Shown here: positions 28,415 to 63,995 of the stretch, piece after piece | Position numbering within the stretch: position 1 is the stretch's first letter | Layout: each line of letters starts with the position of its first letter | The notes under the pieces: generated by a model | What the model was told of the DNA's origin: nothing | Databases searched by the model: none | What the model saw: only the letters and a program-made list of their open reading frames with translations | Translations under genes and position numbers: made by a program | Assembly (NCBI GenBank): GCA_003225055.1 | Contig: QIAU01000135.1 | Span: forward strand, 1-64,000 | Reading direction: 5' to 3' | Origin: Acidobacteriota bacterium | GTDB taxonomy: Bacteria; Acidobacteriota; Terriglobia; Terriglobales; Acidobacteriaceae | DNA length: 64,000 nucleotides

Positions 28415-29827
28415 TCACTTGCCGATACAGAAAGTGCTGAAAATCAGGTTCAGGATGTCGTCTGTCGTCGTGGCTCCCGTGATCTCATCCAGAGGCCGCA
28501 ACGCGTTATAGAGATCGAGTAGCAGCATTTCGTGCGGAACTTTGTTCCGAACTGCGTTGCTCGCCGCGGCCAAGGCCAACAACGAGTCGCACACCAGGCC
28601 TCGATGCCTTACGCTGGTTAGCAGTCCGCTCTCGACCTGGACCCCGGAGTCACCCTCGATGTGCCGCAGGATCTGGTTGCGCAGTTCAGCGATTCCAGCA
28701 CCCGTTGTCGCCGAGGTTCGCACGCGACACAACTGAGAACTGCGAACTGAGAAGCGATAACTTGCAATGTCCGTCTTGTTTTCCACCGCAATGGCTGGCC
28801 GGCGTGCCGCCTGCTCGAGCAACTCCTCATCCTCGCTGCTAACCGCCTGAGAAGCATCGAGGACAACCAGAACCATGTCGGCCTCAGCCAAGGCCTCCAT
28901 GGATTTGCGAATGCCGATGTTCTCCGCTTCATCCAGGGCCCGGCGAATTCCGGCCGTGTCCACCAGCTTGACCGGAATACCGCCCAGCGCAACCGTTTCA
29001 CTGACCAGGTCTCGCGTGGTTCCAGGAGTCGCCGTGACAATCGCCCGTTCGTGTTCAACCAGGCGATTGAAGAGGCTCGACTTACCCACGTTCGGGCGTC
29101 CGACGATGGCCAGCGTGAGACCTTCGTGAACAATCTTTCCGTAAGAGAAGCTGCCGGCCAGTTCTTCAAGCGGAACCCGCAGTTCGGCGATGTCCTTTAG
29201 AATCTGTTCTCCGGGGAGCACCGAGACGTCATCCTCGGCGAAGTCTATTCCCGCTTCGAGCAGGGCAATCAATTCGACCAGCTTCTGCTTGATTGGCTGT
29301 AGCCGCTTAGACAGTGCCCCTTCCAACTGCTGCGCCGCGACTTTGGCCTGAAACAGGGTCTGCGATTCGATCAGGTCGCGGACCGCTTCGGCCTGAGTCA
29401 GATCAATACGCCCATTGAGGAACGCCCGCATGGTGAACTCGCCCGGTTCTGCCACCCGGGCTCCGCGCGAGACGGCCATCTCCACCATATGTCGAAGCAC
29501 AACGGGTGATCCATGCGCGGAGATTTCGACGATGTCGTCGGTTGTATAGGAGTGCGGTTTCTCGTAATAAGTGACGACAACCTCATCAATCCGGCTATCC
29601 CGGGCCTGCCTAGGGCCAGCCGCCCCCGGCTGTCCAGCCGTGCGGAGCTCGGCTTCCGCCGGCTCGACCAGCTCTCCAAATACGGCTCGCCGCGCTTCGA
29701 GAGGATGCTTCAGCCGAAGCATGGGCTCGGTGATTGCTTTAGCCTCAGGCCCCGCCAGGCGTACGACCCCTATCCCGCCGCGGCCGGGCGGGGTTGAGAT
29801 CGCAACGATAGTGTCGTCGAGGTTCAC
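28415..29827 (-). CDS. mnmE: tRNA uridine-5-carboxymethylaminomethyl GTPase MnmE
   Basis: MnmE with MnmG modifies U34 of several tRNAs. The 470-residue protein has the tetrahydrofolate-binding N-domain (IVAISTPPGRGGIGVVRL; FTMRAFLNGRIDLTQAEAV), the G domain with G1 GRPNVGKSS near residue 243, and DTAGIR, and the invariant C-terminus FCIGK with its catalytic cysteine. The GTG at 29827 starts the family homology. Residues about 57-78 (AEAELRTAGQPGAAGPRQAR) are an insertion absent from ordinary MnmE, encoded by a dispersed palindromic repeat. A TACAAT box sits seven bases before the GTG. Confidence 0.96.
   Translation of the reverse strand: MNLDDTIVAISTPPGRGGIGVVRLAGPEAKAITEPMLRLKHPLEARRAVFGELVEPAEAELRTAGQPGAAGPRQARDSRIDEVVVTYYEKPHSYTTDDIVEISAHGSPVVLRHMVEMAVSRGARVAEPGEFTMRAFLNGRIDLTQAEAVRDLIESQTLFQAKVAAQQLEGALSKRLQPIKQKLVELIALLEAGIDFAEDDVSVLPGEQILKDIAELRVPLEELAGSFSYGKIVHEGLTLAIVGRPNVGKSSLFNRLVEHERAIVTATPGTTRDLVSETVALGGIPVKLVDTAGIRRALDEAENIGIRKSMEALAEADMVLVVLDASQAVSSEDEELLEQAARRPAIAVENKTDIASYRFSVRSSQLCRVRTSATTGAGIAELRNQILRHIEGDSGVQVESGLLTSVRHRGLVCDSLLALAAASNAVRNKVPHEMLLLDLYNALRPLDEITGATTTDDILNLIFSTFCIGK
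29617..29657. repeat. dispersed palindromic repeat inside mnmE
   Basis: The core CCCCCGGCTGTCCAGCCG followed by TGCGGAGCTCGGCTTCC is matched by intergenic copies at 32347-32385 (CCACCCTCGGCTGTCCGGCC then GAGCGCAGCTCGGCTTCC) and, more loosely, at 63960-63995. It contains the palindrome CGGCTGTCCAGCCG. Here it is translated in frame as part of MnmE. Confidence 0.7.
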
Positions 29828-29834
29828 GAAAAAG

Positions 29835-29840
29835 ATTGTA
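29835..29840 (-). promoter_or_regulatory. -10 box of mnmE, probably leaderless
   Basis: On the minus strand TACAAT lies seven bases before the GTG start, with GGGACA about 18 bases upstream as a plausible -35. There is no Shine-Dalgarno sequence; the gap is CTTTTTC. Confidence 0.45.
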
Positions 29841-29915
29841 GCGAAATCGAGAGAAGTGTCCCGCCACGGATCGGGGCGGATCCAGGTGAATCCGCGCAAA
29901 TCGGTGGGGTAGTCT

Positions 29916-30452
29916 TTACGGAATTGTTTTGGGGGCAGACCTTCCTGCCGGTCGATAATTCTTAGGAGAAACCACCACGAATCTCCGTCCACCTTCGCCC
30001 TGGCTTTCAGTTTGCAGGTCGTCATGCTCGCGCAGCGCCAGATGCACAATCCGCCGCTCACGCGAAGACATCGGCGCGAACTTGTAAGGCACACCGCTCT
30101 TACGGACACGCTCCGCGGCTACGCTAGCCGCCATGCGCAATTCTTCCAGCCGCATCGAGCGGTGATTCATGCAGTCGAAACAGATCTTCTCGTGCTCGTT
30201 GGCGGGCAGGCGAAGCATTTCCATGGCCAGCAATTCCAGAGAGCGCAGCAACTCCGCGCCTCGCTCCAGCAACAGAGGACTGTCTGGCCCTGAGAGTTCT
30301 ACGAGAATCTCCGGCTTCTCCCAGTCGCGATCCTCGGCCATGGGAGGGTCGACCGAAATGCGGTACTTCAGACGCAAGCCGGCGTTGGCCACAACACCGC
30401 GCAGAAATTCGTTGATCCGTTTGGCGGCAGCGATTTTGTCGGGAATGGCCAT
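29916..30452 (-). CDS. jag: RNA-binding protein KhpB (Jag), R3H domain
   Basis: The 178-residue protein has a KH-like domain (about 5-95, with LKYRISVDPPMAEDRDWEKP and SPLLLERGAELLRSLELLAM) followed by an R3H domain (MSSRERRIVHLALREHDDLQ and EGGRRFVVVSP). It lacks the N-terminal Jag_N domain found in Firmicutes. KhpB proteins bind RNA and influence cell division and envelope. It sits in the classical position between mnmE and yidC. A region of 120 bases separates it from yidC. Confidence 0.9.
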   Translation of the reverse strand: MAIPDKIAAAKRINEFLRGVVANAGLRLKYRISVDPPMAEDRDWEKPEILVELSGPDSPLLLERGAELLRSLELLAMEMLRLPANEHEKICFDCMNHRSMRLEELRMAASVAAERVRKSGVPYKFAPMSSRERRIVHLALREHDDLQTESQGEGGRRFVVVSPKNYRPAGRSAPKTIP

Positions 30453-30572: not shown

Positions 30573-32300
30573 CTACTTTTTGTTCTTCCTCGCCCGCTTT
30601 TCCATCATCTCGCGCATTTCCTGGCCCAACGAACTACGATTCAGAAACACCTGTTGCACGATTCCGATTAAGGTGCTCTCCGCCCAGTACAGGCACAGCC
30701 CAGCTGCCAGGTTCCAGCTGATCACGCCCAGGAACACCGGCATCATGAAGTTCATCATCTTCTGCTGTGCCGGATCCATGCCCGTCTGCGGGGTCATGCG
30801 CTGGGTCAGGAACATGGTGATGATAATGCCGACGGGCAGCAGACGCCACGGGTCCGCCGCCGATAAGTCGCGAATCCACAGCCAGTGCGCGTGCCGCAGG
30901 TCGATCGCCACGCCCAGCATCGCGTAGTAAGCATACAAAAAGGGCAGCTGGATCAGCATTGGCAGGCAGCCTCCCACCGGGTTCACGCCTTCCTTCTTGT
31001 ACAAAGCCGACATCTCCTGCTGCATTTCCTGCTTGCGGGGGTCGCGCATGCTGTACTTCTTGTATTTTTCCTGGATGGACTTGATCTGCGGCTGGATCTT
31101 CTGCATCTTCAGCATCGACTTCATCTGCGAGATGCGCAGCGGTAGCAGTGCGATGTTGATGATCAGCGTTTGGATGACGATGGCCCAGCCCCAGTTGTGC
31201 ACCAGGTGTTGGAATGTCCATTTCAGCCAAATGAACAGGGCTCGGGCGATTATCCCGAAGAACCCGAAGTTGACCAGGTCGCGCAGGTCAGCATGGCTGC
31301 CCGCGCCCGGCGCGCGCACCGACTCCAGCACGTCGAGCGCCTTGGGCCCGACAAAAATCCGCTCTACCGTCGGGCCATGCAGGTTCCCTACTCCTGCACC
31401 CAACACTTCCACCTTGTTTGTCTCCTGCGGATTCTTGGGATCCTTTGGCAGATCGAGCCCATTGCGCAGAGTAACCATAGCCGCGCTCTGCGGGTCCTCC
31501 GGCAGGAAGGCGGCGGCGAAATACTGGTCAACGACGCCGGCCCAGTGAAACGGCCCGTTCAAGGTGTTGCCGCCACCGATCTTCTTGATCGCCAACCGTT
31601 CAATCTTGTCGTTGTACTCGTATTGAATCTGGGCGGCAGCGTAAGCCGCTGGATTAACCTCGTCTCCCAGTCCCGAAGGCCAGATGGGAAAAGCAGCCAG
31701 ATCGCCGCCCTTGTAGCGCACCGACGTTTCAACCCGAACCACGTAGCTGTGATCGAAGCTGAACTGCTTGACCACTGCGAGGTCCTGGTCGCCGTACTCG
31801 AACGTGATGTTCCCGGGCGCCGTCAGGCTTCCAGATTGTGACGCTACGTACAAGGCCGAATTCAACTTGTCTCTCAGCCTCTCCTCGTAAGTCCACAGCG
31901 AGAGCGGAAACCCATATTTCGGCGCCGCCGCCAGGTTTACCAGCTCAAGCGGTTTGCCCTGATCGTCGTCATATTTCTTGAGAATCCACGACTTGACCTG
32001 GCCGCCGCGGTTGGTGAATGTGATTTGGTAAAGGCCGTTCTCGATGACCGTCTCCGACTCGGAGCTCGCCTGCTTCGTCACTCCTTTGACCGGGGCCGGC
32101 GCCTCTGTCTTCGGCAGAGAGGCGGGAGCTGCAGGGGTCGCGGCAGGCTGAGTTTTCTTCTCAGGCTCGGCAGGAGGCTGCGGCCCATACTTCTTGAGCA
32201 GGGGCTGAAAGAGTAAGATCGCCAGGAACGTCAACGCAAACACGAGCAGCAGCTTGCGCTCCATTCCGGGTTCTTGCTGAGGATTGCGATATTCGGGCAA
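30573..32300 (-). CDS. yidC: membrane protein insertase YidC
   Basis: YidC inserts and folds inner-membrane proteins. The 575-residue protein is of the Gram-negative type: an N-terminal anchor (MERKLLLVFALTFLAILLFQ), a large periplasmic beta-domain (about 75-350) and the conserved five-helix core (WGWAIVIQTLIINIALLPLR; ALYKKEGVNPVGGCLPMLIQ; MMNFMMPVFLGVISWNLAAG) ending in a Lys/Arg tail. The frame starts at a TTG with MPEYRNPQQ, similar to other acidobacterial YidC; the ATG at 32264 is the alternative. It is followed by jag and preceded by yidD. Confidence 0.96.
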   Translation of the reverse strand: MPEYRNPQQEPGMERKLLLVFALTFLAILLFQPLLKKYGPQPPAEPEKKTQPAATPAAPASLPKTEAPAPVKGVTKQASSESETVIENGLYQITFTNRGGQVKSWILKKYDDDQGKPLELVNLAAAPKYGFPLSLWTYEERLRDKLNSALYVASQSGSLTAPGNITFEYGDQDLAVVKQFSFDHSYVVRVETSVRYKGGDLAAFPIWPSGLGDEVNPAAYAAAQIQYEYNDKIERLAIKKIGGGNTLNGPFHWAGVVDQYFAAAFLPEDPQSAAMVTLRNGLDLPKDPKNPQETNKVEVLGAGVGNLHGPTVERIFVGPKALDVLESVRAPGAGSHADLRDLVNFGFFGIIARALFIWLKWTFQHLVHNWGWAIVIQTLIINIALLPLRISQMKSMLKMQKIQPQIKSIQEKYKKYSMRDPRKQEMQQEMSALYKKEGVNPVGGCLPMLIQLPFLYAYYAMLGVAIDLRHAHWLWIRDLSAADPWRLLPVGIIITMFLTQRMTPQTGMDPAQQKMMNFMMPVFLGVISWNLAAGLCLYWAESTLIGIVQQVFLNRSSLGQEMREMMEKRARKNKK

Positions 32301-32346
32301 ATTTAGTTCCGTTCAACTTCGGGGCGCACAGCCCAGGTGGGGACAG

Positions 32347-32385
32347 CCACCCTCGGCTGTCCGGCCGAGCGCAGCTCGGCTTCCT
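32347..32385. repeat. dispersed palindromic repeat between yidC and yidD
   Basis: This is an intergenic copy of the repeat found inside mnmE: ACAGCCACCCTCGGCTGTCC followed by GGCCGAGCGCAGCTCGGC. It holds nested palindromes (CTCGGC...GCCGAG; GAGCGCAGCTC). It lies just upstream of the yidC start on the minus strand. Confidence 0.65.
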
Positions 32386-32389
32386 TGTC

Positions 32390-32641
32390 CTACAACTTGA
32401 CCTGTTCCGAATGGTGAGCTCGTACAACCGGATCGTACCCACCCTTCACAAACGGATGGCAGCGCAGCAGGCGCCCGATCGCCATCACTCCGCCGCGCAG
32501 CACACCGCGCCGGTCAATCGCCTCCATTGCGTACTCGGAACAGCTCGGCACATAGCGGCAAGCCGGCGGCAGCATGGGCGAAATCAGCCACTTGTATCCG
32601 CGTAGCAGCTGAATCATCGCTGTCTTGGCAATCTGTTTCAT
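32390..32641 (-). CDS. yidD: membrane protein insertion efficiency factor YidD
   Basis: The 83-residue protein from the ATG at 32641 matches Yid[41 protein letters not shown] and [16 protein letters not shown]. The conserved Cys and Pro pattern is complete. It helps YidC-dependent membrane insertion. A longer frame to 32683 adds unrelated residues. A tandem duplication of TGATGATCCG (about 32648-32667) lies directly upstream of the start. Confidence 0.95.
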
Positions 32642-52912: not shown

Positions 52913-52938
52913 GTGTGGCGCGGACACTCCTGTCCGCG
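52913..52938 (+). repeat. dispersed repeat, GCGGACACTCCTGTCCGCG type
   Basis: GTGTGGCGCGGACACTCCTG is followed by TCCGCG. The second copy is at 978-1003. It holds the inverted repeat CGCGGACA...TGTCCGCG. The rest of the 52901-53264 gap holds no gene; a GTTCCGGGTCCCGCCAGAGG stretch at about 53167 is a degenerate copy of the 42640 repeat. Confidence 0.6.
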
Positions 52939-53264
52939 CCCGCCGGGAACCATCCCGCAATCTTCCTGTGGCAAGAAGCTTGTTATCCTAATCATAATCA
53001 AGCAGCGTCGGCGGCGAAGCGTCCCTGCCGTTCTCGAATCATCAGGTTCGCAATGTGACAACCCGTTTTCATCATCGCGTAGACTCCTCGTGACAAGCTG
53101 ACCCCAGCTGCTTAGTGGCGATATCCGTTAGACCGGGCGTAAGCGCGGGGGGAATGCCAAAAAAATGTTCCGGGTCCCGCCAGAGGCGCCACTTTTCACC
53201 CCACTCTTTCCCAATCCGTAAAATCGCGTGACAATAGGCTGCACGGAAATCCCAGGAGCCGAGC

Positions 53265-63957: not shown

Positions 63958-63995
63958 GTCGTCCTCGGCTGGGCGGCTGAGGGCAGCTCTGCTCC
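63958..63995. repeat. degenerate copy of the mnmE-type palindromic repeat
   Basis: GCAGTCGTCCTCGGCTGGGC followed by GGCTGAGGGCAGCTCTGC resembles the 32347 and 29617 copies (CTCGGCTG...GAG.GCAGCTC). It lies just before the window edge, after the rpmA terminator. Confidence 0.5.

Follow-up and report, generated by a model that had tools for sequence, protein, structure and literature searches.

How does a conserved tRNA modification gene come to hold, in frame, a stretch of DNA that resembles an intergenic repeat? The question is raised by mnmE in a 64,000-nucleotide stretch of DNA from an Acidobacteriota bacterium (assembly GCA_003225055.1, contig QIAU01000135.1, positions 1–64,000), hereafter called the window. 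A sequence-only reading of this stretch had proposed that a mobile palindromic element landed in the gene and stayed translatable, as with the palindromic elements of Rickettsia (RPEs). Since the discovery of the Rickettsia elements there has been debate over whether selfish repeats contribute new protein sequence, and the window offers a testing ground in a bacterial group far from Rickettsia.

The Insert and the Predicted Turn of MnmE

The mnmE gene, which encodes a tRNA modification GTPase, occupies positions 28415–29827 on the minus strand, as judged from its open reading frame (ORF), Pfam and PDB matches, and alignment. The listed ORF is longer (28415–30109, minus strand); homology starts near 29827, and on this basis the GTG at 29827 is taken as the probable start. 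The window MnmE has the Pfam domains TrmE_N, MMR_HSR1, and MnmE_helical. Between GELVEP and RIDEV, the translated ORF contains exactly 22 extra codons, AEAELRTAGQPGAAGPRQARDS (29594–29659, minus strand), and a Thermotoga MnmE chain (PDB: 1xzp_A) has a 20-residue gap at this position in the alignment, so the original description of these bases as in-frame extra residues holds. A stretch in the G domain, IASYRFSVRSSQLCRV, was considered as a second insert and rejected because a congener has a similar stretch.

An AlphaFold2 model of the window MnmE (m497339f8ca86), built from 41 of 81 MnmE sequences as input, is mediocre overall, with a mean pLDDT of 73.7 and a pTM of 0.57. In this model, strands 49–56 and 81–90 flank the insert, and the blocks comprising residues 61–70 and 71–80 have mean pLDDT values of 47 and 52, respectively. 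Values below 50 also occur outside the insert, for example at residues 134–143 and 261–278, so that low pLDDT alone does not single out the insert as a loop; its position between two strands does. The insert is predicted to occupy a β-hairpin turn of the MnmE N-domain as a flexible-looking loop, in agreement with the earlier suggestion that modeling might place it in one.

Copies of the Element in the Window

Within mnmE, a REP-like copy is recognized at 29611–29652 (plus strand), both by a profile match (E = 4e-9) and by blastn to an intergenic copy. The tag end of the element, which reads CTAG here, lies at the low coordinate, and the gene reads the element antisense, in the frame that we call a1. 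The intergenic copy, at 32336–32379 (plus strand; profile match E = 6e-13), adjoins a yidC-like ORF, assigned by eye, at 30573–32300 on the minus strand. By blastn, 29613–29657 matches 32340–32384 over 45 bp at 86.7% (E = 2.7e-9), meaning that 45 of the 66 insert bases align to the intergenic repeat. Each of the two copies folds better than all 200 of its shuffles (z = −3.1 in mnmE and −3.4 between genes). The proposed resemblance of the insert DNA to a repeat near 32347–32385 is therefore well founded. The proposed loose match at 63958–63995 fares less well: there is similarity, over 31 bp at 83.9% (E = 0.002), marking a weak and uncertain third copy at 63963–63993 (plus strand), but its fold is unremarkable, as 57 of 200 shuffles do equally well (z = −0.5).

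A separate GTGG-tagged hairpin, GCGCGGACA-CTCC-TGTCCGCGC, lies at 52913–52941 of the window. The MnmE insert of locus L055 matches it at 96% over 25 bp, and by eye it belongs to the same family as the CGAGAPARE-type MnmE inserts described below.

A Dispersed Two-Hairpin Element with Compensated Pairing

The element is 44–47 nt long and comprises two hairpins in a row plus a GTAG or GTGG tag. Hairpin 1 is GGACAGCCG-CCCT-CGGCTGTCC, with compensated variants, and hairpin 2 is GCCGAGC-GAA-GCTCGGC. Among 80 ungapped copies the tag is GTGG in 38, GTAG in 37, and different in the remaining 5. In a set of 60 copies picked by hand from these 80, the two-hairpin structure has 96.6% of its cells paired and nine pairs with changes on both sides; these amount to 61 double-change cells, compared with 14.6 in shuffles, none of 500 of which is as high, and versions of the structure slid along the same copies reach at most 39.1% pairing. 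The first stem, formed by nine pairs directly after the tag, is 97.2% paired and includes six double-change pairs in the 60 copies. When all 80 copies and both stems are considered, 94.0% of cells are paired (shuffle maximum 88.6%) and there are 77 double-change cells (shuffle mean 18.2, maximum 29). The element is a structured DNA or RNA, beyond mere similar coding sequence.

The window's own genome (7.41 Mb in 301 contigs) holds at least 35 distinct profile matches at E < 0.05, a count confined to the loci fetched with the insert and the intergenic repeat. The profile was seeded from the own-genome consensus and refined once on copies from relatives, some of them from mnmE. Similarity searches of the whole genome gave 7 matches at E ≤ 2e-5 with the insert and 17 at E < 1e-4 with the repeat at 32326–32390, the query itself included in each case. 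Of 100 genomes from the same family, 28 contain a strict hairpin pattern, at 50 places in genome G082 and 33 in G048, and none contains its reversed form. Likewise, around the mnmE genes of 80 relatives (799,346 bp) the plain consensus has 24 matches at E < 0.01 and its reversed form none. The view of the insert as part of a dispersed palindromic repeat is thus borne out by whole-genome copies, covariation, and DNA similarity: the element is a real and reproducible GTRG-tagged, two-hairpin REP-like family of Terriglobales and their relatives.

The MnmE Turn as a Repeat Hotspot

We aligned the window MnmE with the 80 relatives that were kept. Of these 81 sequences, 69 have extra residues at the turn, and in the other 12 the turn has up to five residues. 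The contents of the filled sites differ among relatives, with neither sequence, nor length, nor orientation conserved. The alignment, which had been suggested as a way of seeing whether the insert is strain specific, therefore shows a site that is commonly occupied and variously filled; the alternative that all relatives would have the same 22 residues, with no DNA similarity to intergenic repeats, is not what is found. The idea of a landing in mnmE stands in that the element is present in frame, but not as one single event, since most of the 81 sequences are filled and other genes are occupied too.

We compared 68 of the 69 inserts (that of L100 was unparsed) with 1.37 Mb of collected sequence in which mnmE was masked. 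Forty match repeats elsewhere at E < 1e-3, whereas none of 204 control segments of equal length from the same genes does. This collection is enriched in the element, many loci having been fetched with it, and the controls faced the same collection; the matches between inserts and repeats are therefore not due to chance. For the other 28 inserts, no repeat match was found in the 1.37 Mb. By profile, 20 of the 68 contain the element at E < 0.01. The profile has 25 matches inside mnmE (115,684 bp) versus 18 in the flanks (683,662 bp), and the plain consensus 15 versus 9, some of the mnmE matches being common by descent. All 25 profile matches in mnmE fall either at residues 59–93 (18 matches) or at residues 342–407 (7 matches), the latter being a variable stretch after the NKxD motif of the G domain.

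Copies at the turn occur in both orientations. Sense copies encode HVGTAAPGCPAEQSSA-like peptides (L110, L111, and L063) and antisense copies mostly AELRSAGQPGAAVPT-like ones (the window, L058, L066, and L128); by eye, L091 and L075 use different frames. We mapped orientation classes based on DNA, which include L075 and leave out L059, L089, and L134 (peptide evidence only), onto a quick maximum-likelihood tree of 445 core columns from which the insert was excluded. Support on this tree comes from SH-aLRT alone: of its 78 inner branches 11 are starred and 29 are weak, and no starred set contains the window row. The 9 sense rows need 7 changes on it and the 11 antisense rows 9. The starred branches alone force at least four sense and at least three antisense changes. 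Shuffled labels give counts as low in 20 of 500 trials for sense and 41 of 500 for antisense, and the rows are thus only mildly clustered. One starred pair of sisters, L063 (sense) and L130 (antisense), has opposite orientations.

Other hairpin families are found by eye at the same site. A second family encodes the peptide EVKxPTLxAKxAxRMGHP, and a GTGG-tagged family encodes CGAGAPARE. A third (SASSGQA, FDSAQGR) is nested inside the first element in L083, L130, and L092, and two tandem copies of the first element are seen in L110 and L124, both of them scored in L110. The congener G059 has a different 17-residue stretch at the site, and for L077, which has the same residues there, no repeat match was found in the 1.37-Mb collection. 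The turn has apparently been hit repeatedly by separate insertions, in both orientations and by several families.

In-Frame Copies in Other Genes and Their Reading Frame

We looked for in-gene copies among the 35 own-genome copies, 30 of the 50 strict places in G082, 30 of the 33 in G048, and one locus of G092. ORFs were chosen by length and composition rather than by frame and were checked with Pfam. Of the 46 copies (35 ORF loci), 35 are bracketed by the outermost Pfam matches of their gene and are distributed over 25 gene loci; 7 of these 35 copies have an E value above 1e-3, and the spans of MnmE, UbiD, and the G048 DusB were set by hand. The remaining 11 copies, outside the stretch from first to last Pfam match, were set apart as terminal and probably untranslated, and five further ORFs spanning repeats were dropped, having no Pfam match.

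We named the genes by their Pfam families and by eye. In the own genome, at least 11 of the 35 copies sit between Pfam matches of a gene: NrdJ (2), MnmG (2), SelD, DusB, agmatine deiminase (2), a GHMP kinase, PurL, and MnmE. In G082, the genes are UvrC, MutS, a molybdopterin enzyme, UvrD (2), an alcohol dehydrogenase, and a hydantoinase. Those of G048 comprise ValS, an ABC transporter (2), LipB (2), a MiaB-like enzyme, a kinase, DusB (2), RecG, a peptidase (2), UbiD (2), and SelA, and G092 contributes ValS (2). The position of the DusB insert is nearly the same in the own genome as in G048, and that of the ValS insert nearly the same in G048 as in G092; by eye, UvrC of G006 has the beginning of the element where the G082 gene carries it.

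Several of these genes merit individual comment. MnmE and MnmG, which are partners in one tRNA modification, both have in-frame copies in the same genome (window 28415–29827 and L007, respectively). In ValS of two genera (L225:1311–4001 and L190:625–3024), an antisense copy sits at about the same site and is read in the less common frame, giving TAEGGCPY and TAEGGCPH; the G092 gene has a second copy, in sense orientation, further upstream. The UvrC linker of G082 (L233:1499–1700, compared with L304) has the element and a CHPERSEG-coding repeat absent, by eye, in G006, which is of the same genus.

Five of the six frames of the consensus are usually open, and 39 of 80 copies have a stop in the remaining one. 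Sense copies within genes are read in frame s2 (VGTAALGCPAERSSA) in 18 of 21 cases (p = 1e-6 against an expectation of 1/3 and 7e-4 against 1/2). The preference of antisense copies for frame a1 (AELRSAGQPRAAVPT) is modest, at 9 of 14 (p = 0.017 against 1/3); in these counts DusB and ValS each come from two genomes, and not all cases are independent. Among the terminal copies, 3 of 7 sense and 2 of 4 antisense ones are in these frames, which is no clear preference. The favored frames give small residues where the other frames are arginine rich or aromatic, a preference that purifying selection at the peptide level would account for.

Relation to Known Repeats

By its tag and hairpins, the element resembles GTAG-type REPs rather than RPEs. 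The account of REPs by Di Nocera et al. (2013; PMC3733652), in the portions drawn on here, describes 24 GTAG and 4 CGTC families and presents RAYT transposases as the presumed movers of REPs. Like the element, the GTAG repeats have an unpaired GTAG end (GTGG in most O. terrae GTAG-20), stems of 5–13 bp, short loops in many families, and compensatory variants. They differ in being 20–40 bp long, compared with 44–47 nt and two hairpins; the element is either a variant form of such REPs or one whose second hairpin is fixed. Their reported hosts are Proteobacteria, Cyanobacteria, Chloroflexi, and the PVC group, a list of phyla from which, in the same portions, Acidobacteria are absent. At the 60 Y1 loci examined, we found no RAYT flanked by the element.

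In-frame REPs are themselves known. The portions of PMC3733652 drawn on here report intragenic GTAG REPs in uvr genes, uvrD, tRNA synthetases, and tRNA pseudouridine synthases, and at about the same site in recB of two Xanthomonas species, and suggest that an insert could be neutral where it falls in a flexible linker or loop; neither a frame preference nor a hotspot of many families in one gene appears in them. RPEs share with the element a palindromic nature and an occurrence both between genes and in frame in conserved genes, and one RPE-bearing protein is translated and active (PMC2229807, PMC3733652, from the parts available), an active guanylate kinase with an insert being among the Rickettsia cases (PMC2229807, same scope). 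Compared by description only, RPEs measure 105–146 bp (PMC2229807) or are CGTC tagged (PMC3733652) in those parts, in contrast to the 44–47 nt and GTRG tag found here.

For Acidobacteria themselves, the available sections of PMC3733652 name tyrosine transposases flanked by terminal inverted repeats (TIRYT). These share the phylum and are Y1 transposases with end repeats, but their long terminal inverted repeats are unrelated to GTAG repeats, and we found no link to the element. A 2025 tool paper (PMC12306157) gives, in the part consulted, generic REP counts for three Acidobacteriota genomes. Among the matches listed in a search of open-licence literature (titles and the starts of abstracts), we found no report of in-frame REPs in Acidobacteriota. 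The host group, the frame preference, and the multi-family hotspot thus appear to be new, while in-frame REPs and RPEs are known elsewhere. With many related species, one enzyme site, and both orientations, the tolerance of REP peptides, the choice of frame, and a possible function become testable.

Origin and Maintenance of the Insert

We consider, with a probability of roughly 0.78, that the MnmE insert is one copy of a REP-like hairpin element that is dispersed and non-autonomous, was spread by a transposase, and is kept in tolerant in-frame loops. Most likely, the element would spread as single-stranded hairpins through the action in trans of a tyrosine (HUH/Y1) transposase. Copies would land widely, and selection would retain the intergenic ones together with a minority inside genes, in frame and in tolerant loops or linkers, where they would yield small, linker-like peptides. 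The turn of the MnmE N-domain hairpin may tolerate extra residues, which would account for the repeated hits, in both orientations and by several hairpin families, and for the nesting. The earlier analogy with RPEs, a mobile element in frame in a conserved gene, draws support from similarity, copies, covariation, orientations, and the predicted loop, but we infer the movement, as we do mobilization by a transposase and near-neutrality for the enzyme.

Other accounts of the turn can be set against this one. It could be a fast-evolving GC-rich linker grown by slippage and drift, its likeness to repeats reflecting chance or codon bias, and the lack of a dispersed-repeat match for 28 of 68 inserts would fit, as would the hypervariable linkers of MutS and UvrC; the clean result with all 204 control segments, the compensated pairing that is kept, and the two orientations at the site make it very unlikely. 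An ancient insertion, inherited once and overwritten by gene conversion between copies, would agree with a tree on which the “empty” state needs only four changes and filled sites are clustered, and with the common inserts of some neighbors (L110, L111, and L124). Conversion does not easily invert an element or replace one family by another, however, and the opposite orientations in the starred sisters L063 and L130, the different families at the site, and the nesting in L083, L130, and L092 therefore disfavor this scenario, which we judge unlikely. Least credible of all is an artifact of metagenome assembly: the relatives are metagenome assembled according to their titles, the window assembly has 301 contigs, and repeats can mislead assemblers, yet the extra residues of 69 of 81 MnmE sequences fall at exactly one site, and a stop occurs within the matched stretch in only 1 of 80 relatives, near its start.

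A different possibility is that linkers encoded by REPs were recruited and kept because they improve or regulate their host enzymes. The filling of 69 of 81 MnmE turns and the frame bias are in its favor, as is the recurrence of nucleic-acid enzymes among the hosts, judged from the gene list and in line with the portions of PMC3733652 used here. We regard such exaptation as rather unlikely, given that sequence, length, and orientation of the insert are not conserved between relatives, that 12 of 81 MnmE sequences do without it, and that purifying selection also yields a frame bias. An extension of the preferred reading, spread by a transposase and retention in tolerant loops, is unlikely: at the MnmE turn and at similar sites in DusB, ValS, and UvrC, beyond mere tolerance, hairpin elements might be preferentially targeted to earlier hairpins. 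Conserved enzymes of one bacterial order would then have self-renewing linkers made of successive translated-REP families, and selection for an element that can be translated would have shaped both favored frames.

Candidate Transposases and Insertion Sites

We searched for a transposase associated with the element. The own genome has 42 Y1_Tnp (PF01797) matches, and at the 30 loci examined there we found no Y1 gene flanked by the element, the one match obtained having an E value of 5.6. Five repeat-rich genomes have 38 Y1_Tnp matches, and at the 30 loci examined there we found no Y1 gene flanked on both sides; L224 has one copy of the element, and L196 has weak matches only. The MPxHxH motif was found at none of 144 repeat-centered loci, in a blunt test, as just 35 of the 60 Y1 loci have this motif. 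We looked for a clean empty site and for a target duplication in G059, which has the different 17-residue stretch, and in MutS and UvrC of G082 compared with same-genus G006, where the sequences differ along the whole variable linkers, but could define neither. In the own-genome loci L135–L164, many Y1_Tnp matches are of 142-aa IS200-like length and several are cut at contig ends; Y1 copies may therefore break the assembly.

Three candidates for an element-transposase unit were rejected. The repeat pair at L225 holds valS with its two in-frame copies, and that at L227 contains no transposase-like ORF recognized by eye. At L224 (genome G051), a possible RAYT partner has just one copy beside it, on the groEL side, and we found none on the far side of the transposase. 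This copy (L224:1156–1210) starts right after the groEL stop codon, beside the RAYT-like gene; by eye, a different palindrome, GGCCCACTCAAGCC, is repeated in the surroundings of that gene.
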